In this document: positions 40,841 to 64,000 of the stretch, one piece after another
Layout of the letters: each line of letters opens with the position of its first letter
Numbering within the stretch: position 1 is the first letter of the stretch
Origin: a bacterium 1xD42-67
GTDB lineage: Bacteria > Bacillota > Clostridia > Oscillospirales > Oscillospiraceae
Direction: 5' to 3'
DNA length: 64,000 nt
NCBI GenBank assembly: GCA_003612335.1
Contig: RAYO01000021.1
Span: 1-64,000, forward strand
Notes under the pieces: generated by a model
Databases searched by the model: none
Told to the model about the DNA's origin: nothing
Seen by the model: only the letters and a program-made list of their open reading frames with translations
Translations under genes and position numbers: made by a program

Positions 40841-40850
40841 ACGCCCGCCT

Positions 40851-44554: not shown

Positions 44555-44596
44555 AACCATAGAATGAAAACAGTTTTTGAACGGAGGTGCGTCTAT

Positions 44597-48294: not shown

Positions 48295-48729
48295 TTAGCA
48301 GTTTACCCCTCCCAAATGCCTCGTGTTCTTCATGATGTTCAAAAATGGGGTGAAGTCGTTATCTCCCTGCTTGTCGCTGTCGATACCGTTGTTGACGGCG
48401 ATAAACCGGATGCCCTTATCTCTGAACATGACATCGGTGTAGAAGCCGACCTTGAGATAGTCCCGCCCGAAGCGGCTCATGTCCTTGACGATGATGGTGG
48501 ACACGTTCCCGGCCTCCACCTCGGCAATCATGGCCTTGAAGCCGTCCCGGTCAAAGGTTGTGCCGCTCACTCCATCATCGGTGAAGTGCCGGACATTGGT
48601 GAAGCCATTCCGCTGGGCGTAGTCCTCCAAAAATGCCTGCTGGTTCAGTATGGAATTGCTGGGGCCTTGTAACTCATCGTCACGGCTCAAACGCTCATAG
48701 AGTGCTGTAATCTTGGTTTTCTGGGCCAT
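48295..48729 (-). pseudogene. Serine recombinase Y, N-terminal half cut off by the ICE 1 end
   Basis: It begins M-A-Q-K-T-K-I-T-A-L-Y-E-R-L-S-R-D-D-E with catalytic Ser15, its own AGGAGG site, and a complete catalytic domain (V-K-D-M-S-R-F-G-R-D-Y-L). It follows the family to F-T-P-F-L-N-I-M and then, immediately after ATGAA (48333-48329), changes to unrelated residues and stops at 48295. The missing C-terminal half is expected beyond the left end of ICE 1, outside this window. Confidence 0.85.
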
Positions 48730-48780
48730 GTTTGCCACCTCCTGTTGTTGTGCGGATTTCTCCGTCCCTAAAATACTAAC
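48331..48780. mobile_element. Element Y fragment inserted in virD4 of ICE 2
   Basis: The virD4 frame breaks after D-P-K-G near 48780. 51 bases later a complete serine recombinase start with ribosome site appears on the same strand. The simplest reading is that an element with recombinase Y near its end integrated into virD4, and ICE 1 later integrated into recombinase Y. Only this end is visible. Confidence 0.5.
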
Positions 48781-49322
48781 CCTTTCGGGTCTGTGACAAC
48801 AAAAGAAACCGGATAAGTTTTTGACGTGCATTGCATGAGGTTTGGCTTCAACCAAAAGCGAGTCTTGCCGCTGCCGGAACCGCCCACGATCAGCACGTTT
48901 TTGTTCCGGGCCGTTTTGGGGTCCTTGGGGCGGCTGTTCATTGTCAGGCTCTCCGTCTGGGTGAGGATGATGTTGTCCTCGAACTTCGGGGCTACATAGG
49001 GGGCGATATCCCGAGCGTTGCCCCAACGGGCTGTACCGTACTCCGCCCCCTGCCGGTACTTCTTGGCATTCTTGCCTTTCATGTAGACGGCAAAGCGCAG
49101 ACCCACGCCGCAGGCGATGCCCACCAGCAGATCGACCGGATGAAAGCTGGGAGCGGCGCTCTGAAACGCCAGCACCAGCCCGTCCATGATTCTCAGAAGT
49201 TTATCCGCCAGACTGACGCCGGGGGCCAGCCGCCACGCCTGTCCCAGTTTGGTGGCGCAGAGACCCAGGATGGCATACGGAAGATTGGGAATGATGAGTT
49301 TTTTCAGATTGACCTGTTTCAC
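48768..49322 (-). pseudogene. virD4: VirD4/TraG coupling protein, truncated after Walker A
   Basis: The 184-residue remainder of a protein normally near 600 residues. It has N-terminal membrane helices, Walker A G-G-S-G-S-G-K-T (147-154), then F-V-V-T-D-P-K-G followed by L-V-F and a stop. The start overlaps the pcfB stop (ATGA). A coupling protein without its second half cannot bring DNA to the channel, so ICE 2 is transfer-defective unless the pieces are rejoined. Confidence 0.85.
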
Positions 49323-49762
49323 CGTACCTGCTCCTTCCGTCTCTCCCGGTCAATACTGGGCTTTTTCACCTGAGATCGGAGCTGGGCCAGCCGTTGCAGC
49401 ACTGAGGGCCGCTGTATCCTGCGGACCTTCTTCCCGGCGTACTCCTGCATAGCGGCGGTGAGGGCGTCCGCATCCCGGCTCTTGAAGAAGATCAGGAACC
49501 GGGGCGGGTCATTGGCCCTGTCCCGCTTGACGGCATAGTCCACACCGTATTTCCGGGCAATACGCTCAAAGGCCCGGATACTGGGGTCTGTCAGCTCCAC
49601 GTTGGATACGCCCTGATTTTGCCCGATGAGCTGCTTGACCGTCTGTTTCCCGTGGGGGATAACATCTTGGCATTTCGCGGCCTTGCGATGGGCGAGATAG
49701 GAGGCAATCGCTGCCTTTATCATCCGCCCGGTGAGTTTTGTGCCGTTGATTGCCAACGCCAC
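49319..49762 (-). CDS. pcfB: PcfB family conjugation protein
   Basis: The 147-residue protein has the PcfB/DUF3801 pattern (G-R-M-I-K-A-A-I-A-S-Y-L, P-H-G-K-Q-T-V-K-Q-L, D-Y-A-V-K-R-D, F-F-K-S-R-D-A-D) and a basic tail. In related systems PcfB works with the VirD4-type coupling protein at the relaxosome. GTG start after AGGAGG; the stop overlaps virD4. Confidence 0.85.
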   Translation of the reverse strand: MALAINGTKLTGRMIKAAIASYLAHRKAAKCQDVIPHGKQTVKQLIGQNQGVSNVELTDPSIRAFERIARKYGVDYAVKRDRANDPPRFLIFFKSRDADALTAAMQEYAGKKVRRIQRPSVLQRLAQLRSQVKKPSIDRERRKEQVR

Positions 49763-49773
49763 AGTTTTATTTT

Positions 49774-49880
49774 CTACTTCCTCCTGGATAGGCGCTCACT
49801 CCTTTCTGCCAGGATGATGCCGCGCCGGTGGACTAGGGTGGGACTACCAGCCAGCGCAGCAGAAATTTTCTGCTCTGCAT
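49774..49880 (-). pseudogene. Possible small broken protein between the TOPRIM gene and pcfB
   Basis: The minus strand reads M-Q-S-R-K-F-L-L-R-W-L-V-V-P-P then stop. One frame over it continues L-V-H-R-R-G-I-I-L-A-E-R-S-E-R-L-S-R-R-K then stop just before pcfB. The 107-base span is not a multiple of three. It may be a frameshifted short CTn protein or chance. Confidence 0.25.
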
Positions 49881-49885
49881 GATTT

Positions 49886-50734
49886 TTACCTCTCGTTTCC
49901 CCGGCACTTCTGCCGGTGCTGTAGGTACTCGTTCCAGTCCTTCCCACGGGGAGGAGGCTTATAGGCTACAACATAGCCCTGCTGACTGTACTTCTCTTTC
50001 AAATGGTCCGCCGCTTCTTTGCCGGGTTCGTCAGCGTCCAGACAGAGGAAAATGTACCTGATTTTTGGATTTTCCCGCAGATAGGTGTCTAGCGGCCCTT
50101 CATACAGACCGCAGAAAGCCACGGCGTTGTGGGTGGCATCCCGGTGGAGCGTGCAAAAGCTCATCAGGTCGATGGGGGCCTCAAAGACGTGTACCCGGTC
50201 AATGGTGCTGTCGCAGGGCAGGCGGAAACCGATTTCCTTGTCGCTGCCGGGAACGCCCGCCCGGAAAGATGCTCCATTCAGGTCGTAGGTTCCCCGTTTA
50301 GCGGCGAATACCGGTTTGTTATCAGCATCTTTGCCGACAAAGACGCAGTTGTGGCGTTCCGCCTCTTCGTACAGCAGACCGGCCTCCACAAAGCCCCGGA
50401 TGACCGATGGTGCGATGCCTCGCTTTTTCAGGTAGGCCGTCACCCGCCGCTGGTCCTCATTGGCCGGTGGAAGAACAAACGGCACAGGCTCCAATGGGGC
50501 AGGCGGCGTTTTCTTCTGGACCGGCGCAGGTCTGGGTAAGGGTCTGTCGGGATGGTCCCTTGACCGGCCATTCCAGTCCAGCAGGAATTCGACTGCCTCC
50601 GGAAAACTCTTGCCCTCGAACCGCTGAAGAAAAGCAATGGCGTCTCCGCCCTTTTTTTCGGAGTAACGGAACCAGACGCGCCGGTCCTTGATGCGCAGGC
50701 TGTCCATTTCCTTGGTGGTGTAGTAGCTGCCCAC
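49886..50734 (-). CDS. DUF3991/TOPRIM-domain protein of ICE 2
   Basis: The 282-residue protein has a DUF3991-like part (W-F-R-Y-S-E-K-K-G-G-D-A-I-A-F-L-Q) and a C-terminal TOPRIM motif (I-F-L-C-L-D-A-D-E-P-G). This resembles the primase-like proteins of conjugative elements. The annotated GTG start is internal. The frame is open to 50824 and encodes a family-like N-terminus (F-T-A-N-D-L-A-N-A-N-N-T-D-L-P-D-L-L), but it has no ATG, GTG or TTG after the GGAAGGAG site, so the original start codon may be mutated. Confidence 0.75.
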   Translation of the reverse strand: MGSYYTTKEMDSLRIKDRRVWFRYSEKKGGDAIAFLQRFEGKSFPEAVEFLLDWNGRSRDHPDRPLPRPAPVQKKTPPAPLEPVPFVLPPANEDQRRVTAYLKKRGIAPSVIRGFVEAGLLYEEAERHNCVFVGKDADNKPVFAAKRGTYDLNGASFRAGVPGSDKEIGFRLPCDSTIDRVHVFEAPIDLMSFCTLHRDATHNAVAFCGLYEGPLDTYLRENPKIRYIFLCLDADEPGKEAADHLKEKYSQQGYVVAYKPPPRGKDWNEYLQHRQKCRGNER

Positions 50735-50853
50735 GCGCCGGACCTGATAGCCCAGGGAGGTCAGCAGATCGGGGAGGTCGGTGTTATTGGCATTAGCCAG
50801 GTCGTTGGCCGTAAAGATATACTCTCACGCTCCTTCCGGCCAGCCGCCAGCGG

Positions 50854-51207
50854 TCACTTCTTCCCGCAGCTCCGGCCCTGGCCCTTCACAGTCAGAATGC
50901 CGTCCAGGGTGGTGGCGGTGATGTGCAGCCGTTCGGCGGTGGCAATATCGTTTTTCATAGCCTCGGTGACAGTATCCCCGCAGACCACCAGGACATGGGA
51001 CCGGCGCAGGAGGTCCCGGCTCATGTCCAGGCCGTCCTTGTGTTCCTGGGGGACCCTATCGTTCAGGATGGGGGCCAACAGAAGCAGCGGACAGATGGGG
51101 GTGTATCCGGCATCGTAAACCTGACGGCAGTACCGCAGGGCCTTTTCGCTGTTCTGGCAGGCGCTCCCGGTCCAGGGGGCGGTGACGTAGGCAAAGGGTC
51201 GCTTCAT
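50854..51207 (-). CDS. DUF4406-like (nucleoside 2-deoxyribosyltransferase fold) protein
   Basis: The 117-residue protein begins M-K-R-P-F-A-Y-V-T-A-P-W-T-G and has A-G-Y-T-P-I-C-P-L-L-L-L-A-P and L-L-R-R-S-H-V-L-V-V-C-G-D. This layout is that of DUF4406-like proteins found in ICEs and phages. GAAGGAG sets the start. The enzymatic role in the element is unknown. Confidence 0.72.
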   Translation of the reverse strand: MKRPFAYVTAPWTGSACQNSEKALRYCRQVYDAGYTPICPLLLLAPILNDRVPQEHKDGLDMSRDLLRRSHVLVVCGDTVTEAMKNDIATAERLHITATTLDGILTVKGQGRSCGKK

Positions 51208-51254
51208 GGTAATTCTCCTTCCGCTCATTTCGAGCATAAAAATAAGCGGCCCCG

Positions 51255-52148
51255 TCAGCCGCCGGTACTCATGTCGTGATTGACGAGCATGGTGTAGTGA
51301 TTGTCCGTGGTGGAGGGTGCGTTGAACAGCGCCGCCAGGAGATAGGCCCTGGTGTTCCAGACGCGGGTGGTGTTCTCCCGGATGCCGTCAAGGACCTTCT
51401 CGATATGGGCGGAGGTCAGTTGTTCAAACCGATGCTGGACATAAGCGGTGGGATACTCTGCGTCCCGGCCGATCTTCATGGTGGGGCTTTTGGACAGCGC
51501 CACCTCCAGCATGATCTCCACGAACTCGTTGAGCTGTTCCCGGTTGCACTGGTCCGCAATCAGGTCATACTCGATCTGCTCCTCGATCTCAGCTCTCTTC
51601 TCCAAAATTTCCTTCATTCCTTCCACCGGGGCGGCAGGCGTTTTCGGAGGGGCAGGGGGAGAGAATGAATGAGTTTTTGATCGCTGAGTAATTGATCTTT
51701 TCGTTTTTGATTTCTTTATATTTAATTCCGGGCGGTTTTCCGTATCTGGGTCAACCATATCCGGGAAACCCGTATCTGGTAAAGCCGTATCCGGTGCGCC
51801 CGTATCTGGAGGTGTTTCCGGGCCGGCATCCTCCGGCGCAGACGGTTCCGGGGGCTGGGGGCGCTCGTAAATGACATACTCCGTGTCGGTAATGCGCCCA
51901 TTGGCTCCCCGCAGCTGACGCCGGAGGATGTAACCGGCTTTCTCCAACTCCTTGATGGTGTTCCCAATGGCCTCCACGCCCTCTTTGCAGATGGAGGCCA
52001 GTCCCCTCGTGGAGTAGTTCCAGTCATCGGGGAAGGACAGGAACATGGACAGCAGCCCCTTGGCCTTCAGCGACAGGGCGGTGTCCTTCAAGTGATAGTT
52101 GCTCATTACGGTGTAACCTTGTGTCCGTTCCACTCGGTAGACGGCCAT
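51255..52148 (-). CDS. Replication-initiator-like HTH protein with DUF6017-type C-terminus
   Basis: In this 297-residue protein, residues 1-95 form a winged-helix domain (L-S-L-K-A-K-G-L-L-S-M-F-L-S-F-P-D-D-W-N). A P/D-rich linker with repeated P-D-T-x units follows (about 105-145), then a helical C-terminus (A-Y-V-Q-H-R-F-E-Q-L, R-A-Y-L-L-A-A-L-F-N) typical of DUF6017. It is probably the element's replication initiator or copy-number protein. Confidence 0.78.
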   Translation of the reverse strand: MAVYRVERTQGYTVMSNYHLKDTALSLKAKGLLSMFLSFPDDWNYSTRGLASICKEGVEAIGNTIKELEKAGYILRRQLRGANGRITDTEYVIYERPQPPEPSAPEDAGPETPPDTGAPDTALPDTGFPDMVDPDTENRPELNIKKSKTKRSITQRSKTHSFSPPAPPKTPAAPVEGMKEILEKRAEIEEQIEYDLIADQCNREQLNEFVEIMLEVALSKSPTMKIGRDAEYPTAYVQHRFEQLTSAHIEKVLDGIRENTTRVWNTRAYLLAALFNAPSTTDNHYTMLVNHDMSTGG

Positions 52149-52222
52149 ATCAGATCACTTCCTCAAACAAAAAATTTGGTCACTACTGTTTCGTCAGTTT
52201 CAAAAACCGTGTTCCCTCCTTG

Positions 52223-52798
52223 TCAATCTTGTTGCGGTGAAATCGTCAGCCTTGACGCAAGGCCGGGACTGCACTCAACTTCGTTGCCCCAGACATCCCA
52301 GCCGGGAGTTTCCTGCCGTGCGAACAGCTCCACACGGGAAACATCGCCCATCAGGGTGACAATGCGCTCCTGGACTTCATCCGGCTTTTTGCTGTGCCGC
52401 TCCACCGGAGAGAGGATGACCTGATGGACAGCGGCGGACTGCCGTTTGGGACTGCCTCTGGTCGCCAGCAGACAGACCTCGGCGTTGGCCCTGGTCCAGT
52501 ACCCAAGGCCCCAGAACAGGCCGGGAGATTTTCGGTTCTCCTTCACCCAGGTGAACGCCACGGTCTTATAGGTAAATCCCCAGGTGTCAATGACTTCCAG
52601 CGCCTCTTTCAGCATAGGGAAGGTGGCCCATAAAAACAAAACACAGTCCCCGGCGGCGAGATCGAACACGGGCAGGGCTTTGATGTCCTCCAGGCGCATA
52701 GTGGGGTAATGCTGTTCCGCAGAACGGCCCATACCCTTGCTGGACCATGCCCGGAACGACCAGGGCGGGTCCGCCAGTATCACGTTATACTTCTTCAC
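52223..52798 (-). CDS. MT-A70 family N6-adenine DNA methyltransferase
   Basis: The 191-residue protein has the catalytic D-P-P-W (10-13) and the SAM-associated Y-W-T-R-A-N-A-E-V-C-L-L-A-T-R-G. It also has the family C-terminal H-S-K-K-P-D-E-V segment. There is no adjacent restriction enzyme, so it is an orphan methylase that may shield element DNA or regulate it. It starts with GTG overlapping the previous stop. Confidence 0.85.
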   Translation of the reverse strand: MKKYNVILADPPWSFRAWSSKGMGRSAEQHYPTMRLEDIKALPVFDLAAGDCVLFLWATFPMLKEALEVIDTWGFTYKTVAFTWVKENRKSPGLFWGLGYWTRANAEVCLLATRGSPKRQSAAVHQVILSPVERHSKKPDEVQERIVTLMGDVSRVELFARQETPGWDVWGNEVECSPGLASRLTISPQQD

Positions 52799-53406
52799 CG
52801 GCGTTCCTTCTGCTGTATCTCCAGGGCAACACAGCCATAGCGGGCAATGAGCAGAGCATTGACGATCAGGCAGAAAGCCGTGGTGTCAATGACTTCTCCG
52901 TCCGCCAGGTCGGTGAGGGCGATGCCGTCTCCGTTGGCGTAGATGTCCCTCGCCGCCGACAGCAGCGTATAGCCGTGGGGAGAGATGCCCTTGGTGGTGG
53001 CGTAGCTGAACATGATACCATCCCGACAAAAGCAGTTTGCGGCACGGTTGGCGGTGTCTGGGTCGGCGGTGAGCAGATACATGGCGGCGAAGTAGGCCGG
53101 GGTATCTCGCCTGCGTTGAAAGCCCTCCCGCGCTTTCAGCGTCTCCATCCGCTGCCGGTGGCCCTCGTTCAGCCACAGGGAACCGTGGAAGAGCTGGACG
53201 GCGGTGCGCAGTTTGGCTCCCAGGCGGGGGTCGTGGGGAAAGCTGTCCAACAGAGCCTCTTCATAGCCGACAACTCCGGCCTCGATGCGCTCTGCCAGCC
53301 ACGGGCATACCACATGGGCACAGCCCCTCTTTTTCCCCCTGTATTCGGTGCAAAATTTACATTCCACATCCTCCATCTTGTATTTGAAGTGAGTGGTTTG
53401 ACTCAT
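52795..53406 (-). CDS. Hypothetical ICE protein with N-terminal Cys cluster
   Basis: The 203-residue protein has C-K-F-C near residues 16-19 and two further Cys nearby (R-G-C-A-H-V-V-C-P-W), a possible zinc site. A helical region is followed by a hydrophobic C-terminal stretch (F-C-L-I-V-N-A-L-L-I-A-R-Y-G-C). AAAGGAG sets the start. It lies between ParB and the methylase; I cannot name its family. Confidence 0.65.
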   Translation of the reverse strand: MSQTTHFKYKMEDVECKFCTEYRGKKRGCAHVVCPWLAERIEAGVVGYEEALLDSFPHDPRLGAKLRTAVQLFHGSLWLNEGHRQRMETLKAREGFQRRRDTPAYFAAMYLLTADPDTANRAANCFCRDGIMFSYATTKGISPHGYTLLSAARDIYANGDGIALTDLADGEVIDTTAFCLIVNALLIARYGCVALEIQQKERR

Positions 53407-53492
53407 GGATTGGTTTGTACTCCTTTCCCGGACACAAAAAACGGACAGAGAAAATTCCCTGTCCGTTGGTAGTCCGATTTGAAATTGTGATG

Positions 53493-54419
53493 TTACCGCT
53501 CCTGACTGCGCTGCCGCTTTTTCATCCAGCCCTCCAGGAGATTGATGATGGTCTCTTCCATCTTCTTCGGCGTATAGGACCGGGGGAAATACTTGCGCAG
53601 GGTATCGCCGGTGAACACGATGCGTTCAACCTCCGGCTTTTTCTGCTCCGACATGACGGACAGCATGGTGTCCTCGTCCAGTTTCCCCTCCTGGCTCATT
53701 CTCTTCATCCGCTGGGCCTGGGAGAGGGAGGGAGTGGCCTGTTCACTCTCCATGGTCTCCACCAGAAGGGCCTGTTCCTCCGGTTTCAGATAGGAGATTT
53801 CCACAGCGGGGGTCATGGCGATTTTCTTTTCGTCCACCATCTTTTGCAGCTCCGGGGACAACTCGGTCAGGCGAACATAGCGGCGCACCTGATCTTTGCT
53901 AATGCCAGCCTCATCCCCAACTTTCTCAACAGATAACTTCTGTGCAACTTGCGTAGAAGTTAAATCAGTCCGTGCGCCCTGCCGTTTGATGGCCTCCAGC
54001 TTCATTTTGAGGGCCTTTGCTTTTTCAATGGGGGAAATATTCTCCCGCTGGATATTGGTGTCCACCATAATAATGATGGCCTCATCCCGGTCCAAGTCTC
54101 GGACGATAACCGGCATGGCATCCAGACCGGCCAGCTCACAGGCCCGTTTGCGCCGGTGTCCGGCTACCAGTTCATAACCGCCGTCCTCCCTGGGGCGGGC
54201 AATGGCAGGGGTGAGTATTCCCCGCGCCTTTACGCTGTCCAGAGTTTCCTTCATAATATCGTCATCATCCCGAACGGAAAAGGGATGGTCGGGGAAGGGG
54301 TGCAGTTCAGACAGCGGTATAATCTGTACGCGCTCCAGAGTAGCGTCCTGGCGGCTTTCCTCCGTGGAAAACAGGTCATCTACCGATGCCAGCTCTATTT
54401 TTTTCGCGCTGCTTTTCAA
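53493..54419 (-). CDS. parB: ParB family partition protein
   Basis: The 308-residue protein has a ParB N-terminal domain with I-P-L-S-E-L-H-P-F-P-D-H-P-F and A-G-H-R-R-K-R-A-C-E-L-A-G. A central HTH (V-G-D-E-A-G-I-S-K-D-Q-V-R-R-Y) is followed by a long helical C-terminus. It binds centromere-like sites or acts as a regulator with ParA. The gene overlaps parA by 44 bases. Confidence 0.9.
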   Translation of the reverse strand: MKSSAKKIELASVDDLFSTEESRQDATLERVQIIPLSELHPFPDHPFSVRDDDDIMKETLDSVKARGILTPAIARPREDGGYELVAGHRRKRACELAGLDAMPVIVRDLDRDEAIIIMVDTNIQRENISPIEKAKALKMKLEAIKRQGARTDLTSTQVAQKLSVEKVGDEAGISKDQVRRYVRLTELSPELQKMVDEKKIAMTPAVEISYLKPEEQALLVETMESEQATPSLSQAQRMKRMSQEGKLDEDTMLSVMSEQKKPEVERIVFTGDTLRKYFPRSYTPKKMEETIINLLEGWMKKRQRSQER

Positions 54420-55197
54420 TTTTCAACACCTCCTTCGTCAGGCTTTGATACGCAGCGGCCACTTTCCCGCTAGGGTCATGGGCAAAAATGCTCTTGCCCT
54501 CGGCGCTGATCTCCTTCGCCCGGACGGAGTGGGGGATTTCCGTAGAAAAAACCTTGATCTTACCACCGTAAGTATCCCGCAGCAAGGATGCAGTTTCCTT
54601 AGCAAAATTCGTCCGGTTGTCCACCATTGCCAGCAGAATACCGTCGATCTGGAGTTTCGGATTGATCTGTCGCCGCACCTTGGCGATTGTTTGCAGCAGT
54701 TGCTCAAGACCTTTCGCCGGAAGATACTCTGCCTGGACAGGAATTATGACCCTGTTGGCCGCGGCCAGAGCGTTCACCGTCAGCATACCCAGGGACGGTT
54801 GGCAGTCCAGCAGGATATGGGTATACTGATTTTTCACCGTGTCCAGATACCGCCGCAGGGTGGTCTCTCTGCTCATGGCGTTCACCAGGGAGACCTCCAT
54901 ACCGGACAGCTGGATGTCGGCGGGTATAAGGTCGATGCCCTCCGGGTGGTGCAGAATGCCCTCGCCGGGGGTGATGGTCTGCTCGTTCAGCATCTTTCCC
55001 ATCATGTCCGAGAGGGTGACGGGCAGGCGGTCCGGTTGGGGATTTCCCAGGCTGATGGTAAGACTGGCCTGGGGGTCGCAATCTACGACTAGCACCTTTT
55101 TCCCCGCCTGCGCAAGGCCAGCAGCCAGATTGACGCAGCTGGTCGTTTTGGTCACGCCGCCTTTCTGGTTCGCCAGGGCGATCACTTGTGCGTTCAT
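54376..55197 (-). CDS. parA: ParA family partition ATPase
   Basis: The 273-residue protein has the deviant Walker A K-G-G-V-T-K-T-T (12-19), Walker B-like I-L-L-D-C-Q-P-S and V-D-C-D-P-Q-A-S. It is the usual first gene of Tn1549-type ICEs and would stabilise the circular intermediate. It reads away from the recombinase X junction, about 230 bases from the inferred ICE 2 end. Confidence 0.9.
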   Translation of the reverse strand: MNAQVIALANQKGGVTKTTSCVNLAAGLAQAGKKVLVVDCDPQASLTISLGNPQPDRLPVTLSDMMGKMLNEQTITPGEGILHHPEGIDLIPADIQLSGMEVSLVNAMSRETTLRRYLDTVKNQYTHILLDCQPSLGMLTVNALAAANRVIIPVQAEYLPAKGLEQLLQTIAKVRRQINPKLQIDGILLAMVDNRTNFAKETASLLRDTYGGKIKVFSTEIPHSVRAKEISAEGKSIFAHDPSGKVAAAYQSLTKEVLKIEKQREKNRAGIGR

Positions 55198-55250
55198 GTT
55201 TGTTCACTCCCATACTTTAACTGTGCTTTTGTAAATGGGGTCGAAAAAAA

Positions 55251-55280
55251 GGGAGAACACAACGAAACTTGCGTTCTCCC
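55251..55280. terminator. Stem-loop in the ICE 2 end region
   Basis: An 8-bp perfect stem GGGAGAAC/GTTCTCCC with flanking A/T tracts. Apart from this, the 55198-55424 stretch holds no gene and probably contains the ParA promoter and the element end. Confidence 0.55.
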
Positions 55281-55424
55281 TCGAAAACAATATGCTTTTG
55301 TCGAATATAGGGGGATTTCATCATCGTTATCCACGGGGTCACTTTTGAGAGCCAATCGCCGCAAACCCGCATGATTACTGACTTTTTTCTGATTTTATCC
55401 GTTCTTAACGAGCAACACTTCTTC

Positions 55425-56675
55425 AACGCCATGTATTCACGGGACATCTCCAAGAAGGTCTCCACGGCGCTCCGGGCGCAGATGGAGACGGGAAAGTTCC
55501 GCAACCGCAACCTCCCCTACGGCTACCTCTGGAACGGGGATAAGACCGCCTATGTGGTGGATGAAGAAGCCGCCGCTGTTGTCCGGCAGATATTTGAGTG
55601 GAAACGGCAGGAGGTATCGGTCTACACCATCGTTGAGCGGTTGAAGGCCGGGGGCGTAGAAAGCCCGGAGCGCCACAAGCGCAGGGCCGGCACCCGGAAC
55701 GGCGATAACATCCAGGGCGAGGGCTGGTGTCCCTCCACCATCCGGGGCATCCTGCAAAACCGGGCGTACATCGGGGAGATGATCTGCGGGAAGTCCGAGA
55801 CGGCGCTCTACAAGGGTCTGAAAAAGCATATCAGCGAAACGGACAAGTGGATCGTAGTCCCTGACGCACACCCGCCCATCGTATCTATTTCGGACTTTGA
55901 GGCGGTGGAGCGGCAGATGCAGGAGGACAGCGCCCACCGGGAGACCGCTATGGAGTGGTCGGCGGACATCCGGGCGGGCATGATCGACCTCTTTGCCGGG
56001 AAGATATTCTGCGCCGACTGCGGAAAGCGGATGTACTACAAGCGGCAGCGTATCTGCGGATGCAAAAATGTGACCTTCCGGGGTGTTTATGATTGCAGTA
56101 CCCATGTGCGGCGGGGTCACGCAACCTGTTTTAACCACTTCATCCGGCAGGACGTCCTCAACGAGAAGGTGTTCAATGCCATCCGGGACCAGCTTCAGGT
56201 GGCGCTGGACTATGAGAAGCTCCTGCTTGCCATGCGGGGCGGCTCCGGCGAGGCCAGCGTCCGGGAGAAGCACAAGGCGGCGGTGGCAAGCGTCAAGCTC
56301 CGGCTGAACGCCCTGAAAAAGAAACGGGCGGGGCTGTATGAGAGCTATGTCGAGGGCATCCTGAACGAGGAGGAATACGCCTTTGCCAAACAGACCTATG
56401 AGGAGCAGTATGAAGCTCTGAACCGCCTGCTGGACGAGGCCGTGGAGCGCCGGGAGCGGTTCCTGGCGTCCATCTCGCCGGACAACAAATGGCTCACCAT
56501 GATGCGGGGCGCTGCCGGGATGACAGGATTGACGCAGGAGCTTGTGGACGCGATAATCGAGAAGGTGCTTGTCTACGGCGGGGGCCGTATCGAGGTCGTG
56601 TTCAACTACAACGATGTATTTTACGCCATGCTGGAGTGCGTGGAGCAGATAAAGGAGGCGGGCGGCGATGACTGA
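55425..56675 (+). pseudogene. Serine recombinase X, C-terminal part only
   Basis: Family similarity starts at N-A-M-Y-S-R-D-I-S-K-K-V (55425) and runs to the end of a normal recombinase, through the zinc ribbon (C-A-D-C-G...C-G-C...C). The catalytic domain with the active Ser is absent. The ATG at 55371 is in ICE 2 DNA. The break is at the same codon as in recombinases Y and Z. The stop overlaps recombinase W by eight bases. Confidence 0.85.
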
Positions 56676-58263
56676 CTACCGGGTGGGCATTTATATCCGC
56701 CTTTCCCTGGCGGACGGGGACGGGAAGGCCGAGAGCGACAGCATCGGCAACCAGCGGGAGCTGATCCATCAGTTTTTAGACCGGCATCCCCAACTGAAAA
56801 ATGCGCCCCGGACGGAGTTCGTGGACGATGGGTACACCGGGACCAACACGGACCGCCCGCAGTTCCAGGCATTGATGAAGGAGCTTCGCACCGGGGCCAT
56901 CAATGTGATGGTGACGAAAGATTTTTCCAGATGCCACCGGGACTACACCCAGATGGGCAACTATCTGGAGTGCGTCTTTCCCTTCCTCGGCGTCCGCTAT
57001 CTCTCCGTCAATGACGGCTATGACAGCGATGATTACAAGGGCATGACCTCCGGCATGGATGTGGTCCTGCGGAACATCATCTATGAGGCGTACAGCAAGG
57101 ACCTGTCCGTCAAGACCACCACGGCGAAGATCATCATGATGAAGCAGGGCAAATACATAGGCAGCTTCGCTCCCTATGGCTTTCAGTTCCATCCCACGGT
57201 CCGGAACAAGCTGGTGATAGACGGGGACTCGGCGGCGGTGGTGCGGCGCATCTTCGATATGACCTTGCAGGGGATGGGCAGTACCGCCATCGCCCGCAGG
57301 CTGAACAGCGAGGGCGTCCTGACCCCCGGCGCCTACTTCCGGCAGAAAAATCCGGGGAGCGGACGGTTCCGCAAAGCCTCTGAAAAGAACGGCTGGACGG
57401 CGGCCACGGTGCTGAACATCCTCCACCAGTATGAGTACACCGGGGCGCTGGTGGGGCGCAAGCGGTACAAGGCCGGTCTCCATGAAAAGCGGACCGTCCC
57501 GCAGGATAAGTCCGACTGGATCATCTATGAGGGGGCGCATGACGCCATCATCAGCAGGGCGGACTTTGACCGGGCGCAGGAGATCATCCGGCAGAGACCC
57601 AGGCGGGCAAAAGGGACATCACAGGAGTATCCTCTGAAAGGGCTTCTCAAGTGCGGCAACTGCCATAGGACACTGAGCCGTATCCACAGTTCTGCCGGAT
57701 ACTACTACCGATGTATTAAGAGCAAGGCGGATGAGAACAGCGATTGCCCGAAGGGAAAGCTGTTCTCCGAGAAGGAGATCGAGGGCATTGTGTTCCGGGC
57801 AATCATGCAGATGCTGGCGATGTGCCAGGAGCAGAGAAAGCAGAAGTCCTCCCTGATGCTGACCCGCAAGGAGCGTATCGCAGCCTGTGTCGCAGAGCTT
57901 CAAAGGCTGGAGCAACAGCAGGAACGGTACAAGCAGGAGAAGTTTAGGGTCTATGAGAATTTCAGCGGCGGGGCGCTGGCAAAGGACGCCTACCTGAAAC
58001 AGCGGGCGGACATTGACAGTAAACTCGCCGCCGCCAAAGCCGAACAGGAGGCACAGGAACAGCTTTTATCTGGACTGGAGCATCTGGCCTTTCAGGACAA
58101 GGCGCAGGAGGATGATGTGTTCACTTCTTTTGCCGGAGCAACAGAACTGACGGCGGAACTGGCGCAGACATTCATCAAGGAAGTGCTGGTGTCCTCGCCC
58201 ACCGAGATCGAGATCGCCTGGAAGTTCCGGGATGTGTTTGATATGCAGGGACATGACAACTGA
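56668..58263 (+). CDS. Large serine recombinase W, intact
   Basis: The 531-residue protein has catalytic Ser13 in I-Y-I-R-L-S-L-A-D, T-K-D-F-S-R-C-H-R-D, a zinc ribbon (C-G-N-C-H...C-I-K...C) and a coiled-coil tail. Its joining segment reads I-I-Y-E-A-Y-S-K-D-L-S. It is overlapped by recombinase X and followed by recombinase Z remnants, suggesting a tandem recombinase set of an older element. AAAGGAGG at 56651-56658 lies upstream of the ATG. Confidence 0.88.
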   Translation: MTDYRVGIYIRLSLADGDGKAESDSIGNQRELIHQFLDRHPQLKNAPRTEFVDDGYTGTNTDRPQFQALMKELRTGAINVMVTKDFSRCHRDYTQMGNYLECVFPFLGVRYLSVNDGYDSDDYKGMTSGMDVVLRNIIYEAYSKDLSVKTTTAKIIMMKQGKYIGSFAPYGFQFHPTVRNKLVIDGDSAAVVRRIFDMTLQGMGSTAIARRLNSEGVLTPGAYFRQKNPGSGRFRKASEKNGWTAATVLNILHQYEYTGALVGRKRYKAGLHEKRTVPQDKSDWIIYEGAHDAIISRADFDRAQEIIRQRPRRAKGTSQEYPLKGLLKCGNCHRTLSRIHSSAGYYYRCIKSKADENSDCPKGKLFSEKEIEGIVFRAIMQMLAMCQEQRKQKSSLMLTRKERIAACVAELQRLEQQQERYKQEKFRVYENFSGGALAKDAYLKQRADIDSKLAAAKAEQEAQEQLLSGLEHLAFQDKAQEDDVFTSFAGATELTAELAQTFIKEVLVSSPTEIEIAWKFRDVFDMQGHDN

Positions 58264-58289
58264 TAAAGGTTTCTACCTCACGATAAAGC

Positions 58290-58345
58290 GGATGCCGGGG
58301 GGCGGTCTGGGAAAGACCTGTTGGCCGCCTCTGGCATCCGTAAAA
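58290..58345 (+). terminator. Hairpin after recombinase W
   Basis: GGATGCC...GGCATCC flanks an inner GGCGG/CCGCC pairing, followed by GTAAAAAATTT. Likely end of the X-W transcript. Confidence 0.5.
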
Positions 58346-58365
58346 AATTTGGTGTTTAGTTGACA

Positions 58366-58523
58366 CAAGGAGATTTATCCCGGCTGGGCCGCGACCATTT
58401 GAAGGTGGGGCATTTTACAGAAATTTACTTTCCGATGAAGAATGTCCGCTATATCGCGGTCAATGACTGCGTGGACACCGCCAACAAAAACAACGACATA
58501 GCGGCGCTGAAAAATGTTATGAA
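58366..58523 (+). pseudogene. Serine recombinase Z, internal N-terminal fragment left of element 3
   Basis: It reads D-L-S-R-L-G-R-D-H-L-K-V-G-H-F-T-E-I-Y-F and on to A-A-L-K-N-V-M. It then departs from the family after ATGAA at 58519-58523. The first 60 or so residues, including the catalytic Ser, are also missing. The continuation N-E-F-Y-S-R-D-N-S-R-K is at 63819, on the other side of element 3. Confidence 0.85.
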
Positions 58524-58639
58524 TGTCACCTTCTCATAAAGAATGACATCACACGCAGGACATAGCATCCTTGTTGCCTCCGACAAAGCTGTTACAAAGC
58601 GGAGAACATGACAATAAACGACTACGAACCCGCTATCGG

Positions 58640-58660
58640 ATTATCGGTAGCGGCTACCGA
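58640..58660. repeat. 21-bp palindromic repeat, copy 1
   Basis: It contains the perfect inverted repeat TATCGGTAGC-G-GCTACCGATA with one more base of each flank. 21 bases are identical to 61512-61532. Confidence 0.85.
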
Positions 58661-58684
58661 TAATATCAAAAACATAATTACAAG

Positions 58685-58714
58685 GACGGCGGGGAATGTT
58701 CCTCGCCGTCTTTG
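58685..58714. terminator. Terminator in the left part of element 3
   Basis: GACGGCGGGG/CCTCGCCGTC stem with a six-base loop followed by TTTGT. Confidence 0.6.
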
Positions 58715-58744
58715 TACTGGCCAATACTTAATGGCAGTATGAAC

Positions 58745-58773
58745 TTGTCCTTATTGCCTGTGACTGGTACAAT
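58745..58773 (+). promoter_or_regulatory. Promoter of the sigma-factor operon
   Basis: TTGTCC and TACAAT are separated by 17 bases. A similar TTGGTACAAT occurs at 60945-60954 after the operon. Apart from this promoter, the palindrome and the terminator, 58524-58894 shows no feature. Confidence 0.5.
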
Positions 58774-58894
58774 AGAGGTCAAATTGAATATCTTTTGGAG
58801 AACTGAAATCTTTTGAAAAACCTTGTAAGGTTTTAGAGTTTTTCCCGTCTTATAGGGTGAAGGGACCTTCAAGTTGCAGAGAGGAGGCATTGCG

Positions 58895-59452
58895 TTGGAG
58901 GATAGTCAAATCATTGAATTATACTGGAAAAAGAATACAGACGCTATATCAAAAACCGCCGACAAGTATGGCGCATACTGCTATGCAATTGCCGAAAACA
59001 TTCTGCACAACCACGAAGATTCCGAGGAGTGTGTCAATGATACTTGGCTCCATGCATGGAATGCGATGCCTCCGCAGAAGCCCAATGTGCTTCGGCTGTT
59101 TTTGGCGAAAATTACCCGCAATCTTTCCTTAGACCGCTTCAATGTGCGAAATGCAGAAAAACGGGGTGGCGGCGAGATCACCCTTGTCCTAGACGAACTG
59201 GTGGAATGTTTTAATGGCGGCGCAGACACAGAGACAGCATACGAGGCCAAAGAACTGCGGCAGTGTATCCGGCGTTTTGTGCGCTCACTGCCGGAGCGGG
59301 AGGGAAATGTGCTGGTACGCCGGTACTTCTTTGCCGAATCTATAGCGGATATTGCGCGGCGGTACGGCCTGACAGAAAATCATGTGACGGTGATGCTGAG
59401 CCGGACGCGGAAAAAGCTGAAGGCGCATCTTTTGAAGGAGGGATACCGATGA
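58895..59452 (+). CDS. ECF-like RNA polymerase sigma factor
   Basis: The 185-residue protein has region 2 (N-H-E-D-S-E-E-C-V-N-D-T-W-L-H-A-W, then L-R-L-F-L-A-K-I-T-R-N-L) and region 4 (L-P-E-R-E-G-N-V-L...I-A-D-I-A-R-R-Y-G-L-T-E-N). The best start is TTG 58895 after GAGAGGAGG; the ATG at 58874 precedes that site. It is coupled to its membrane partner by overlapping stop and start (ATGA). It probably drives genes of element 3 or of the host in response to the partner. Confidence 0.85.
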   Translation: MEDSQIIELYWKKNTDAISKTADKYGAYCYAIAENILHNHEDSEECVNDTWLHAWNAMPPQKPNVLRLFLAKITRNLSLDRFNVRNAEKRGGGEITLVLDELVECFNGGADTETAYEAKELRQCIRRFVRSLPEREGNVLVRRYFFAESIADIARRYGLTENHVTVMLSRTRKKLKAHLLKEGYR

Positions 59453-60882
59453 ACAAAAACGATTTATTCAGGGCATTTGACGGAGTGGATGACGATATTC
59501 TGGAACGCAGTGAGGTTCCCACAGCCCTCCGCAGGCCATTGGCCTACCGAAAGTGGCCGGCGGTGGCCGCCTGTTTGGTTCTAATTGTAAGTCTGACGGG
59601 GGGTATCCTCGTTGCTGAAGCCAAAGAGTACAACGCGGCGGTAGACTTTTTCGAGGAGAACGGTCTGTCCACCGAGGGGCTGAGCCGGTCAGACGTGAAA
59701 GCTGTTTACCGGGATATTACCAGCCAGCATTTCACCTATGACAAAACGGCGGAGGTCATTGAACGGGCAGTACCTGGGCTGGAAATCTCCCAGCGGGAGC
59801 CTACCCCGGAGGAGTTGGCGGCGCTGTGGGATCGGAACGTGTGGCGCAACACCCGGTCGGAAACCGGGTTTAGCTACCGCATGGATGTCCGGGAGAAGCT
59901 GGACGAGAGCCTGGGCTTCGATGTGCTGGACAGGAGCGTTTTGGAGTGCTACCGGGATGGCAATCCGATCTGGTCGGTGGAGTTCCCCGACCTCTACGTG
60001 GAGGACGGTGTGCACACCTCCGCCGGGACGGCGGTGTGGGGGCATAATGACACCTGGTCCAGTGAGCAGCCTGTGTATTCCAGCATGGCTCGGGTGGACG
60101 AGAGTGGGAACGTCCTCTGGCAACGTCAACTGGATCACGGCTTTGAGCGAGAGTATATCGCCGCCGTGCTGGACAACGGGGACGGCACATGGGCGGTCGT
60201 CAGCCGGGGAGACTTCCGTTACCTCTGCCTGAGCCAGTACGACACAGACGGAACCGAGCTTAGCTTCTGCAAGACCGAGGTCGGTAATAAGGGCATCTGG
60301 AATGCCGTCCGCTTGGGAGAGGGCTACCTGATACAGCTGGGACACAAGCTGGATGGAGAAACCGCCCGGCTGGTGAAGCTGGATCGGGAGGGGAGTTTAA
60401 TGGACACCTTCACTTATGAAGGGGATGACTGTGATTACACCATCACTGATATGATTGAGTTTGGGGATCGGGTGTATCTGTCCGCCTACGCAGTGCCCAA
60501 GCAGAAGGACAAGGGCGGGCGGTATGAGATTGCTGACATCCTGGCTTACTTGTTTAACAACAACATCTGGGAAATCTCCAGTGAGGAACTGACCCCTATG
60601 GTGAGGGACAACTACACGGCGGTGCTGTTGCTGTGTGACCCGGAGGGCGGTACGCCGGAGGCATTCTATTCTGTCAAAGGATCTCTGGGGGGAAAATTGG
60701 CAGTAAACGATACTGGAGAATTGGCGTGGGATGTGGAGAGCATAGTGAACACATTCTATTCCCCAGCTACCAATTCCTTTACCATTGGTGGCACCTGTCA
60801 AGTATTCTGTTATACCTTTGCCGATGTCGGAACTTTCCTTAGTCAAGAGGATACAGGCGAAACAGTACCATATCATAGATAA
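59449..60882 (+). CDS. Membrane partner of the sigma factor (putative anti-sigma/sensor)
   Basis: The 477-residue protein has a short cytoplasmic N-terminus (D-L-F-R-A-F-D-G-V-D-D-D-I-L-E-R-S) and one membrane helix (about 38-57). A large extracellular domain is rich in beta strands, with repeated D-E-S-G-N-V-L-W-like and D-T-D-G-T-E-L turns that suggest a propeller. The arrangement is that of anti-sigma sensors, although no named anti-sigma motif is visible. The ATG overlaps the sigma stop. Confidence 0.7.
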   Translation: MNKNDLFRAFDGVDDDILERSEVPTALRRPLAYRKWPAVAACLVLIVSLTGGILVAEAKEYNAAVDFFEENGLSTEGLSRSDVKAVYRDITSQHFTYDKTAEVIERAVPGLEISQREPTPEELAALWDRNVWRNTRSETGFSYRMDVREKLDESLGFDVLDRSVLECYRDGNPIWSVEFPDLYVEDGVHTSAGTAVWGHNDTWSSEQPVYSSMARVDESGNVLWQRQLDHGFEREYIAAVLDNGDGTWAVVSRGDFRYLCLSQYDTDGTELSFCKTEVGNKGIWNAVRLGEGYLIQLGHKLDGETARLVKLDREGSLMDTFTYEGDDCDYTITDMIEFGDRVYLSAYAVPKQKDKGGRYEIADILAYLFNNNIWEISSEELTPMVRDNYTAVLLLCDPEGGTPEAFYSVKGSLGGKLAVNDTGELAWDVESIVNTFYSPATNSFTIGGTCQVFCYTFADVGTFLSQEDTGETVPYHR

Positions 60883-61019
60883 TCCCCCAAAGGGTAGTCC
60901 AAGAAAAGTCCTCCACCAGCATTCTTATATGTTTTTCCTTTGAATTGGTACAATCTAAGGGATTAGAATTTATTTTTCGCTACTTGGCAAGCAGTGTATT
61001 TGTTCCCACAAATACTCAA

Positions 61020-61057
61020 AACAGCTTTCCGGCGTGACCGCCGGAAAGCTGTTTTTG
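61020..61057 (+). terminator. Strong rho-independent terminator of the sigma operon
   Basis: A perfect 15-bp stem AACAGCTTTCCGGCG/CGCCGGAAAGCTGTT with a four-base loop and TTTTTG. The rest of 60883-61289 has no gene. Confidence 0.8.
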
Positions 61058-61289
61058 CTTGTTGGTGGCACAGCCCCCAAACCCCTTTTCGCAGAATTTA
61101 ATTCTGCGGCTACGCACCGTTCCGGCGCTTTTCTCTCCCACCCTTCAGCAGGATTTTTGAAAAACGGAGAAATTGGCACTCCGGCAAAATCTCAAACTCT
61201 CGCCAGCCCTCGACAAAATTTTCCCAAAGGCATTGACAGGAACACCTGTTTGTGCTACCATAATGGAGAACTGAATACTGCACATATTT

Positions 61290-61358
61290 TTCACGCAGAT
61301 ACATAGACCGAACCACAGCGTTTTGCTGGGGTCGGTCTTATTGTATCTGCGTTTTTGT
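61290..61358 (+). promoter_or_regulatory. Long leader hairpin upstream of the small genes and recombinase
   Basis: ACGCAGATACA pairs with TGTATCTGCGT, and an inner AGACCGA.CC.CAGC pairs with GCTG.GG.CGGTCT around GTTTT. TTTTTGTTTTT follows. It is preceded by TTGACA and a TACCAT/CATAAT -10 near 61233-61262. It looks like a terminator or attenuator controlling the downstream genes. Confidence 0.6.
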
Positions 61359-61378
61359 TTTTGAAGGGAGGCCGGACA

Positions 61379-61842
61379 ATGGAAAAATCAAAACGGAGGA
61401 AGTCAGGCGCAGGCGGGGCAGACCGAAGCTGGATGCCCACATCACGGAGGAATACGCCCCCAGCAGGCGGCAGGCGCTGAACAAGATGTATCTCTATGAG
61501 GGTGTCCATCTATTATCGGTAGCGGCTACCGAAATTCAAAACAGCGAAGTTTTATGGCGGGAGGACAGAACAGCCGCCACCTTAAAATCCCGTGACGGCA
61601 TTCTGGAGCAACTCGGCAGAATGGCGGTGCAGGACAAGCTGGGCCGTACCGATTGCGTCTATCTCGCCAACCTTGCCATCGCCGCCGTTCGAGCCGGGTA
61701 TACCACACGAGAGGTAGAAGTTGCTCTGCGGAAAATCCGCATGGCAGCAAAGTCCAGCATGAAAAATCCAGACGATGAGGCGCTTTATTGTGCGCTGGGC
61801 AACACCGTGGACATTCTGCGGAGAATGGGAGGTGTCGCATGA
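61379..61842 (+). pseudogene. Small element protein with an apparent early frameshift
   Basis: ATG 61379 after GGGAGG starts M-E-K-S-K-R-R-K and would end after 33 residues. One frame back the sequence reads R-R-R-R-G-R-P-K-L-D-A-H-I-T-E-E-Y-A-P-S-R-R-Q-A-L-N-K-M and continues for 118 more residues as a helical protein, with no start of its own before ATG 61486. A single indel near 61400 would restore one protein of about 154 residues. Translation from 61486 is the alternative. The 21-bp palindrome is inside the gene. Confidence 0.55.
61512..61532. repeat. 21-bp palindromic repeat, copy 2
   Basis: Identical to 58640-58660. Here it is in coding frame (L-S-V-A-A-T-E). Confidence 0.85.
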
Positions 61843-62054
61843 AAACGGGAAGTCGGCCAGTAGAAATCACAGTGGCGGGAGAACTCCCCGGCTTTGAATA
61901 CGGCGGGTGCCGGGGTGTGTTTTTGAACCTGGGGCTTGATGTGGAAATGGACGGAGTGACCTATCACCTGTCCAGCAGCTTTGCGGAAAAAACGGAAATG
62001 GGCGAGGTCATTGACACGGCAGAACTGGAACGGAACAGGCGGCGGACGGCGTAA
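61839..62054 (+). CDS. Small hypothetical protein of element 3
   Basis: The 71-residue protein (M-K-T-G-S-R-P-V-E-I-T-V-A-G-E-L) has a beta-rich core (G-C-R-G-V-F-L-N-L-G-L-D-V) and a charged tail. The start overlaps the previous stop (ATGA) with GGAGGTG upstream. No family recognised. Confidence 0.6.
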   Translation: MKTGSRPVEITVAGELPGFEYGGCRGVFLNLGLDVEMDGVTYHLSSSFAEKTEMGEVIDTAELERNRRRTA

Positions 62055-62163
62055 AAAATTTCGATGTCCGGCGATAAGCTATTGCTTTACAGTGCTAAAG
62101 CAGCTATAATGGGAGCAGGTAACAGATGCTATGTTCCTGCGTCCAGGGAGGTAAAAAAACAAG

Positions 62164-63789
62164 ATGCAGGAAAAATACAATGTTGGAATTTATTGCAGGC
62201 TCAGTCGTGATGACGAAAGAACCGGGGAGTCCGTGTCCATCGAAAATCAAAAAATCATGCTCAGCCGCTATGTGCAGGAACAGGGCTGGAATCTCTATGC
62301 GGCATACTGCGATGACGGAGTCTCGGGTACGACCTTCGACCGTCCCATGTTCAACCAGATGATCGCCGATGCCAAAGCCGGGAAAATCAATCTGATTTTA
62401 TGTAAAGACCTCAGTCGCCTCGGCAGAGACTATATCGAGGCCGGACGGTTTACAGACATCGTGTTCCCCAGCATGGGCTGCCGGTTCACCGCCCTCAATG
62501 ACGGCGTGGACACCATTCACAAGAACAATGAGATGCTGGTCATTTTGAAGAATGTCATGAACGACCTCTATGCACGCGACACCAGCAGTAAAATCCGGGC
62601 GGTGAAACAATCCACCTTCAAGAGCGGAAAGTATGTCGGCTGCTACGCTCCCATCGGCTACCGAAAATCTCCGGCGGACAAGCACATCCTTGAAATCGAC
62701 CCGGTGACCGCCCCTGTTGTTCTCCGCATTTTCGATATGCGTTTGCAGGGGGACAGCTTTCGGAAAATCGCCCGGACGCTGAATGAGGAGGGCGTACCCT
62801 CGCCCCGCGGCTTCTATTACATGGCGGAGGGCAGGCCGAACCTGCGGGGCGAAACGCCGTACTGGAACGATGTGACGGTCAAGACCATTCTGCGGAATGA
62901 GGTCTACCTCGGCCATATGGTGCTGAACAAGACCGGCACTGTCTCCTACAAAGTCCACGAGCAGGTCAGCAAGCCGAAAGAGGACTGGATCAAGGTGGAG
63001 CATACCCATGAGCCGCTCGTTTCGCAGGAGGTCTGGGACGCCGTTCAAAGGCTGGACAATCACCCCTCCAAGGGGCGCTCCGGCAGCGATGGGGAAATCT
63101 CCCTGTTCGCCGGCGTCCTCTACTGTGCGGACTGTGGAGGTTCTATGCGGTATCAAAGGGATTACCGCAGCCGGAAGCGCCACGCCGATGGACACTTTGG
63201 CGGGTTTCAAGCCTACTCCTGCAATCGGTATATGAGCGGCGGCAAGGCGGCTTGTACCTCGCACTACATCAACTGCAAGGTGCTGACGAAGCTGCTCTTG
63301 CTGGACATCCACGCCAAGGCGATGCTGGCGCAGAACAGCCCCGCCGCCCTCAAGGAGAAAATCCTCGCCCAGAAGAACGCCGCCAGTCTGGAGCAGACGA
63401 AGGCACTCAGGGCAACGCTGGTAGCGGTGGACAAGCGACTGGCGGAACTGGAAAAGCTGGTGGTGTCGGCCTACGAGGACAAAGTAAAGGGCGTTATGCC
63501 GGAGGCGCTGTGTGTCCAGCTGATGAACCGCTACGAGGACGAACGCCGGGGCAAGCTGGAACAGCGGACGCAGCTCACCGCCCAGCTGGAGGCCACCCAG
63601 GAGGACGAGCAGGCCACCGATGAATGGCTGACCATCATCAGGGATTATGCCCAGCTTGAGGAACTCGACCGCCCCACGCTTTTGCGGCTGGTGAAGCGCA
63701 TCGAGGTGGGCGAGAAGTACGAAATCGCCGGGGAAACCCACCGGGACATCAAAATCTATTACAACTTTGTCGGGTATGTGGAACTCTGA
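62164..63789 (+). CDS. Large serine recombinase of element 3
   Basis: The 541-residue protein has catalytic Ser14 in Y-C-R-L-S-R-D-D, K-D-L-S-R-L-G-R-D, a zinc ribbon (C-A-D-C-G-G...C-N-R...C) and a coiled coil ending I-K-I-Y-Y-N-F-V. GGGAGG precedes the ATG. Its end is 31 bases from the right joint, so it is the obvious integrase of element 3. Its own joining segment reads V-M-N-D-L-Y-A-R-D. Confidence 0.9.
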   Translation: MQEKYNVGIYCRLSRDDERTGESVSIENQKIMLSRYVQEQGWNLYAAYCDDGVSGTTFDRPMFNQMIADAKAGKINLILCKDLSRLGRDYIEAGRFTDIVFPSMGCRFTALNDGVDTIHKNNEMLVILKNVMNDLYARDTSSKIRAVKQSTFKSGKYVGCYAPIGYRKSPADKHILEIDPVTAPVVLRIFDMRLQGDSFRKIARTLNEEGVPSPRGFYYMAEGRPNLRGETPYWNDVTVKTILRNEVYLGHMVLNKTGTVSYKVHEQVSKPKEDWIKVEHTHEPLVSQEVWDAVQRLDNHPSKGRSGSDGEISLFAGVLYCADCGGSMRYQRDYRSRKRHADGHFGGFQAYSCNRYMSGGKAACTSHYINCKVLTKLLLLDIHAKAMLAQNSPAALKEKILAQKNAASLEQTKALRATLVAVDKRLAELEKLVVSAYEDKVKGVMPEALCVQLMNRYEDERRGKLEQRTQLTAQLEATQEDEQATDEWLTIIRDYAQLEELDRPTLLRLVKRIEVGEKYEIAGETHRDIKIYYNFVGYVEL

Positions 63790-63820
63790 AATCTGTACTT
63801 CTTTATGCGAGGTTATCTAA

Positions 63821-64000
63821 CGAATTTTACAGCCGGGACAATTCCCGCAAAATCCGTTCGTCCATACGGGCCAGGGCAAAGGCGGGGCTTTATCGCTGTT
63901 CCTATGCTCCATTGGGGTATCGCAAGGCCCCGGATAACCACAATAAGCTGATTGTGGACGAGGAAACGGCATGGATAATCAAGCGGATATTCGAGTATGC
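63821..64000 (+). pseudogene. Serine recombinase Z, C-terminal half right of element 3 (runs out of window)
   Basis: From the AAC at 63819 the frame reads N-E-F-Y-S-R-D-N-S-R-K-I-R-S-S-I and continues R-C-S-Y-A-P-L-G-Y-R-K to the window end. It completes the fragment at 58366-58523. The upstream codons belong to element 3 DNA. Confidence 0.85.

Follow-up and report, generated by a model that had tools for sequence, protein, structure and literature searches.

The window analysed here is the whole stretch of 64,000 nucleotides that opens contig C12 (C12:1-64000; C12 is 78643 bp long) in an Oscillospiraceae assembly of 3.56 Mb and 120 contigs. It contains parts of three large serine recombinase (LSR) genes, named Y, X and Z. 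Alignment to intact LSRs placed the break point of all three at one shared Asn codon, at about position 134 of an LSR profile built here, which divides each gene into an N-terminal part (N-half) and a C-terminal part (C-half). Each break was found to be adjoined by the end of a different LSR-encoding element: ICE1, an integrative and conjugative element (ICE), at Y; R1 at X; and element 3 at Z. The original prediction, made from the bare letters of the window, had proposed these junctions, a single codon for the three breaks and a different element at each of them (R1 being its ICE 2). The bases were found where it had placed them, the alignments agreed on the codon, and the three element ends were distinct. 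The present work concerns this codon as a putative attachment site for arriving elements.

On the minus strand, Y runs to ATG-AA (AA at 48330-48329) and is followed by non-LSR sequence. X opens as CTTC^AA-CGCC, with the junction at ^ and AA at 55425-55426. Z reads ATG-AA on one side of element 3 (AA at 58522-58523) and AA-CGAA on the other (AA at 63819-63820). Since AA is present in both flanks of Z, element 3 proper spans 58524-63818, a small refinement of the limits proposed earlier. LSR recombination is expected to use a 2-bp core, and AA is the likely crossover dinucleotide of element 3 in Z.

Two further LSR genes of the same genome, on contigs C52 and C36, were found to be broken at the same Asn residue. 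The C52 element encodes an LSR 97% identical to that of element 3 and splits another LSR gene (10492->10106 and 1085->6), and C36 carries an LSR 66% identical to it together with a split LSR gene. The junction sequences of Z, C52 and C36 are ..AA^TG.. and ..CT^AA.., giving a 2-bp direct repeat AA at both ends, and the element arms are near-mirror images of each other and conserved between elements. The LSR of element 3 displays Resolvase, Recombinase, Zn-ribbon and DUF4368 domains, all above Pfam cut-offs, and its stop codon lies 29 bp from the junction; a near-end LSR with three domains is characteristic of LSR elements of the Tn4451/TndX kind. A Pfam scan of three of the four other open reading frames (ORFs) of element 3, which bears on whether it encodes a relaxase or mobilization protein as integrative and mobilizable elements do, gave one sigma factor and two without match. 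Read in frame, the attachment (att) arm on the C-half side (63798-63820, and other type A loci) encodes LYxRL[ST] before the Asn codon. This resembles the N-terminal Y-x-R-L-S motif of LSR proteins, a likeness that may be due to chance or be a trace of the origin of the arm.

In order to find relatives of element 3, 122 matched stretches were collected; 97 had an encoded relative and 80 were kept, which with four own loci (L047, L040, L041, L045) gave 84 loci examined. Those with an LSR at least 53% identical to that of element 3 form the type A group (71 loci), and the junction was readable in 63. The original prediction had called for a search for recombinase genes cut at the Asn codon, and 51 of these 63 loci were found at this site in another LSR gene, 48 by script and three by eye (L105, L132 and L102, the last counted because its left junction is an LSR N-half). 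The unreadable loci were L045, L125, L138, L140, L141, L143, L145 and L159, among which L138 has an LSR C-half at its far end. The breaks at the same residue in C52, C36 and these 51 loci show that the coincidence of Y, X and Z is not due to chance. C-halves could be taken from 42 of the 48 script-called loci and fell into 36 clusters at 90% identity and 21 at 60%, the latter loosely comparable with the multi-targeting class of Durrant 2022. Both halves were recovered at the set thresholds in 11 of the 48. Among the 13 loci below 53%, L155 and L156 (50 and 49%) were at the site with both halves within the locus, the former in the complete genome AP012044.1, and L170 showed an LSR N-half broken at the site behind an LSR pair; the other 10 were not at the site or their sequence ended too soon. 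A search of viral contigs gave five loci: L202 and L203 at the site, L204 with an LSR-pair element at the site, and L205 and L206 with none. No broken LSR gene was seen in the available flank of 13 control loci with LSRs 36-39% identical to that of element 3 (L059-L066, L068-L070, L075 and L076; the pairs L056-L058 and L074 and the partial L067 were left out). At 1698-6858 of its own sequence, the viral contig of L203 shows the arrangement known from the window: an LSR triplet, a piece of a target LSR gene and a type A element, in this order.

A second group, type B, is represented by ICE1, which carries a tandem LSR pair with DUF4368 above the Pfam cut-off in both, and whose end at 48328 abuts the N-half of Y. 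Among 300 genomes of the family and 394 of the order, loci whose second LSR has 60% identity or more to that of ICE1 were found on C12 and C68 and in G403, G456, G307 and, decayed, G082; G078 was added as the seventh through its first LSR (81%). An LSR N-half broken at the Asn site faces six of the seven, and all five undecayed loci at the site share the junction ATG-AA^GAAC or GTG-AA^GAAC. In G078, a single contig, both halves of the target gene were located, at 1237665 and 1294095, 56.4 kb apart.

Uninterrupted counterparts of a target were found. In the IMG/VR contig L207 the counterparts of the two target halves of L134 (92.5% and 93.0% identity) lie directly next to each other at the site, and the same holds for L208, L209, L210 and L211, at 83-93% identity. 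A search with the C-half of X retrieved three other genomes (48-53% identical). The junction-free homologues demanded by the original prediction exist in close form for the target of L134 and, at 49-80% identity within intact LSR triplets, for X; no close relative was found for Z among 300 family genomes. L219 and L220, relatives of the L094 target, were rejected as uninterrupted sites: they are themselves broken a few codons upstream of the Asn site, near 2980, by a different element end (..CATCTTTTTTCTCTACAGAAG).

In a tree of 57 chosen rows, covering part of the loci and labelling L102 as a different site, the rows of types A, L155/L156, B1 and B2 (the two LSRs of type B) grouped in a single 44-row clade (support 99/99), separate from the controls and the triplet LSRs; the off-site rows were scattered inside it. 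Codons at the site were counted in deduplicated sequences, taking type A LSRs at least 59% identical as own genes and broken C-halves from every locus, beyond type A targets. Own genes carry NDLYARD at the site in 44/45 cases and Leu (CTN codon) in 45/45. At this Leu position all 46 broken C-halves have F, W, M or Y and none has Leu, which occurs in 5/55 other intact LSRs. At the nucleotide level, C at core +7 was present in 45/45 own genes, 0/46 broken and 8/55 other genes (p=0.007, broken vs other), G at core +13 in 42/46 broken vs 23/55 other intact genes (p=1e-7) and C at core +14 in 40/46 vs 23/55 (p=4e-6), values that are flattering as the sequences are related to one another. None of the broken halves in the counted set is close to type A, the best reaching 45% over the C-half and 54% over the N-half. 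The host gene of the LSR-pair element L204 is 95% identical to the LSR gene of element 3 over 83 residues, one case which indicates that another group is able to insert into type A genes. The differing codon of the type A own genes may exempt their own kind.

The remaining parts of the broken genes were sought on other contigs. ICE1 is collinear over 76-48180 with the ICE of G078, and the C-half of Y (C17:58548->57331) abuts the other end of an ICE of the same kind. On the G078 ICE the right part of C17 matches up to 1243860 and the left part of C12 starts at 1243862; C17 and C12 are probably neighbours because their ends meet there. For C12:1-76, exactly at the contig edge, Rfam gave a group II intron 3' end with a score under its threshold (24.1 bits vs gathering 40), a likely reason for the contig break. 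R1 has its outer end at 55424, against the C-half of X, and this end has sequence in common with the ICE ends of C17 and G078. The remainder of the VirD4-like gene of R1 lies near C17:50063-51057, and the element that split this virD4 appears to be the one carrying Y. Both C69, where the Y-like LSR (4492-6066) is intact, and G078 show the same arrangement of virD4 stub and recombinase.

For the N-half of X the best candidate, by gene order and similarity, is C68:2256-2654, which is adjoined by a B-type LSR pair. The order of the C68 LSR, X and the gene at 56668 matches, gene by gene, the intact LSR triplets of G194 (67% for the C68 LSR, 80% and 54% for the N- and C-half of X, 57% for the third LSR) and G082 (57%, 62% and 49%, 50%). 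The triplet element, R0, has its end within Z, at the codons for KDLSRLGRD and with GA as the apparent core, and element 3 splits the remainder of Z beyond this end. Such ends of LSR-triplet elements, at a second conserved site, were observed in three genomes (window 58360-58373; L184, G194:C52, near 1048; L185, G082:C25, near 21544). At C69:549-776 (L182) an LSR gene is cut at KDLSRLGRD from the other side; this LSR start is a candidate for the missing start of Z. The cargo of ICE1 includes, at 28832-33481, two-component system and ABC transporter genes that are lantibiotic-immunity-like, below curated cut-offs.

Table 1. Features of the window, in order of position.
Feature	Position	Strand	Basis
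ICE1 (type B), part on C12; other end C17 near 58540	77..48328	+	Collinearity with G078 ICE; start set after the intron-like end at 1-76
ICE1 LSR B1 (Resolvase, Recombinase, Zn ribbon, DUF4368)	44908..46569	+	ORF, Pfam
ICE1 LSR B2, 3' end toward Y junction	46553..48190	+	ORF, Pfam
Y, N-terminal half, residues 1 to ~133, ends ..ATG-AA	48329..48729	-	Alignment; C-half C17:58548->57331
R1 (earlier ICE 2): ParA-ParB-primase-VirD4' side and start of Y-bearing element	48731..55424	-	End at 55424 matches other ICE ends
VirD4-like N-terminal stub of R1	48768..49322	-	NCBIfam CD1115-type VirD4, profile 1-64/442, under cut-off
X, C-terminal half, opens at Asn codon	55425..56675	+	Alignment; N-half C68:2256-2654 by order and similarity
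Third LSR of R0 triplet (C68 LSR, X, third)	56668..58263	+	Gene order, similarity
GA at R0/Z junction, second conserved LSR site, KD of KDLSRLGRD	58372..58373	+	Sequence comparison
Z, middle piece, profile 81-133, ends ..ATG-AA	58372..58523	+	Alignment to LSRs
AA core, left copy	58522..58523	+	Junction sequence
Element 3 (type A), 5.3 kb	58524..63818	+	Junction sequences, AA both sides
Element 3 att arm, left	58524..58545	+	Junction sequence
ECF-type sigma factor gene, element 3	58874..59452	+	Pfam Sigma70_r2 and r4_2 above cut-off
Element 3 LSR, type A, DUF4368-bearing	62164..63789	+	ORF, Pfam
Element 3 att arm, right, near-mirror of left arm	63798..63818	+	Junction sequence
AA core, right copy	63819..63820	+	Junction sequence
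Z, C-terminal half, runs on to C12:65012	63819..64000	+	Alignment to LSRs

Taken together, it is proposed, with a probability of about 0.92, that the members of an LSR clade attach at a stretch of coding sequence conserved in other LSR genes, and that the elements nest in consequence of the site lying in the recombinase genes of residents. The site would be the stretch M/F-N-E/D-F/W/M/Y.., and the LSR of the newcomer would join the attP of its element, an imperfect palindrome, to the target gene by a crossover at AA, bases 1 and 2 of the Asn codon. Such a crossover is suggested by the anatomy of the junctions and by the established biology of LSRs; catalysis and excision are presumed. Integration would cut the recombinase of the resident after about 133 residues. 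As the cut falls inside the Pfam Resolvase domain (9-157 in the LSR of element 3), both halves are presumably inactive, and the newcomer would have to excise before the broken gene could function again. The nest can then be read as follows: X, of the R0 triplet, would host R1; the virD4 of R1 would host the Y-bearing element; Y would host ICE1; and Z would host both element 3 and, at the second conserved site, R0.

The original prediction had regarded the codon stretch as an attB-type site at which arrivals inactivate and trap the resident. The first part is strongly supported by two element groups, dozens of distinct target genes, the AA core, the conserved arms and the natural uninterrupted relatives. 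Regarding the second, disruption of the recombinase gene of the resident is seen directly, and trapping of the resident by the newcomer is plausible.

Several observations weigh against the proposed use of LSR genes as attachment sites. Twelve of the 63 readable type A loci are not at the site (L096, L098, L106, L107, L108, L117, L118, L123, L144, L147, L148 and L153), of which L096 and L144 may be LSR remnants. L107, with an LSR 95% identical to that of element 3, lies elsewhere in an LSR gene (near 1712, near NQKAI codons), the only type A case so recognised, and L100 (96%) is reversed at the site, with TT in both flanks (5682 and 11652). G307 is the type B locus away from the site, and the C-half of Z had no match at E<=1e-120 except Z itself among the 300 family genomes. 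Many of the surveyed loci are at contig edges, and the links among C17, C68 and C12 are putative. As for trapping, residents may carry more than one LSR, X being the middle of three, and precise excision would restore the gene. The off-site loci also fit an account in which relaxed, multi-targeting DUF4368 LSRs land in LSR genes merely because these are plentiful; DUF4368 is present in type A and B LSRs, and the genome holds 32 PF00239 matches in total. This is unlikely, as the insertions, with the lone type A exception of L107, occur at one codon and are not spread along the gene, none was seen among the control LSR loci, and the target sites share bases beyond protein conservation.

The opposite orientation of the Y N-half and X C-half, broken at one codon, could hint at a single gene parted by inversion or mis-assembly. 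The inversion model was dropped once the C-half of Y was placed on C17, by an ICE end, and the N-half of X on C68, by its triplet partner; with like structures in the single contig of G078 and in AP012044.1 (L155), such a rearrangement is very improbable. Even less credit is given to homologous recombination between similar LSR genes: the stretch ranks with the better conserved ones of LSRs and could yield chimeric breaks, but past each break lies a conserved element arm, not LSR sequence, usually with an LSR gene within 100 bp, and arms and AA core recur in dozens of loci. More weight is given to hitchhiking without trapping, in which newcomers would dock in LSR genes because these are common and the insertion does no harm, would leave again with ease and would let the resident stay mobile. 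Its chances are about even. Coluzzi (2017) argues in this sense, in the available text, for LSR elements inside ICE genes, and the reading frames of the ICE1 and element 3 LSRs are uninterrupted from end to end; on the other hand, so deep a nest, together with the split virD4 of R1, suggests that this resident, at least, lost its mobility long ago. Somewhat less probable is a lineage of elements specialised for life inside the recombinase genes of others, with a food chain, Leu-based self-sparing and a reversible lock. The food chain would be illustrated by L204, which breaks a type A-like gene, while no type A target was found close to type A. The lock would consist of a host recombinase gene broken on arrival and restored on leaving, gating the movement of the host element.

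The setting proposed is one of gut Clostridia in which elements stack, each newcomer breaking the recombinase gene of its host element. If true, this would be a direct conflict among mobile elements of gut bacteria, in which the arrival of one disables the exit enzyme of another, and it would account for the deep nesting of ICEs and the recurrent broken recombinase genes in these genomes. It would also provide a testable rule of self vs non-self at one codon and a collection of LSRs whose natural sites are well defined, and it would raise the question of what controls the order of excision in nested elements.

A full-text literature search, which covered neither supplements nor most subscription papers, returned no description of LSR genes as targets of LSRs. 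The nearest known case, judging from the available text, is that of streptococcal integrative and mobilizable elements with serine integrases inside the ICE genes traG, maff2 and snf2 (Coluzzi 2017; PMC5357655). There too LSR-encoding elements nest, interrupting site-specifically a conserved gene of a second mobile element; here the recombinase gene itself is the target, at one codon and in very different LSRs, and ICE-sized elements are included. Only the Y-bearing element, in virD4, corresponds to the traG/maff2/snf2 pattern, the targets of element 3 and ICE1 being LSR genes. The multi-targeting, TndX-like DUF4368 LSRs, of which close relatives use many target genes (Durrant 2022; PMC10083194), resemble types A and B in carrying this domain and in the differing targets of related LSRs. 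In the present case the targets are members of a single protein family with one codon in common, and no recombinase gene is named as target in the available text of that paper, supplements aside. Tn6104, Tn6105 and Tn6106 of Clostridioides difficile, of the Tn4451 kind, are likewise LSR elements that have a 2-bp core and sit inside a conjugative element, Tn6103 (Brouwer 2011; PMC3158075), but their hosts, ORFs 1743 and 1776, are not called recombinase genes in the portion of the article available. The streptococcal ICEs with serine integrase triplets (Ambroset 2016; PMC4701971) share the three-LSR arrangement of R0 and the disruption of genes, including traG of another element; as far as the available text goes, their targets are mutT, traG and hsdM, the rumA ICEs have the att site in their own integrase gene, and none of these is a foreign LSR gene. 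LSR elements in genes of other ICEs are thus already known, and what sets the present elements apart is the unusually systematic use of the LSR gene as target.

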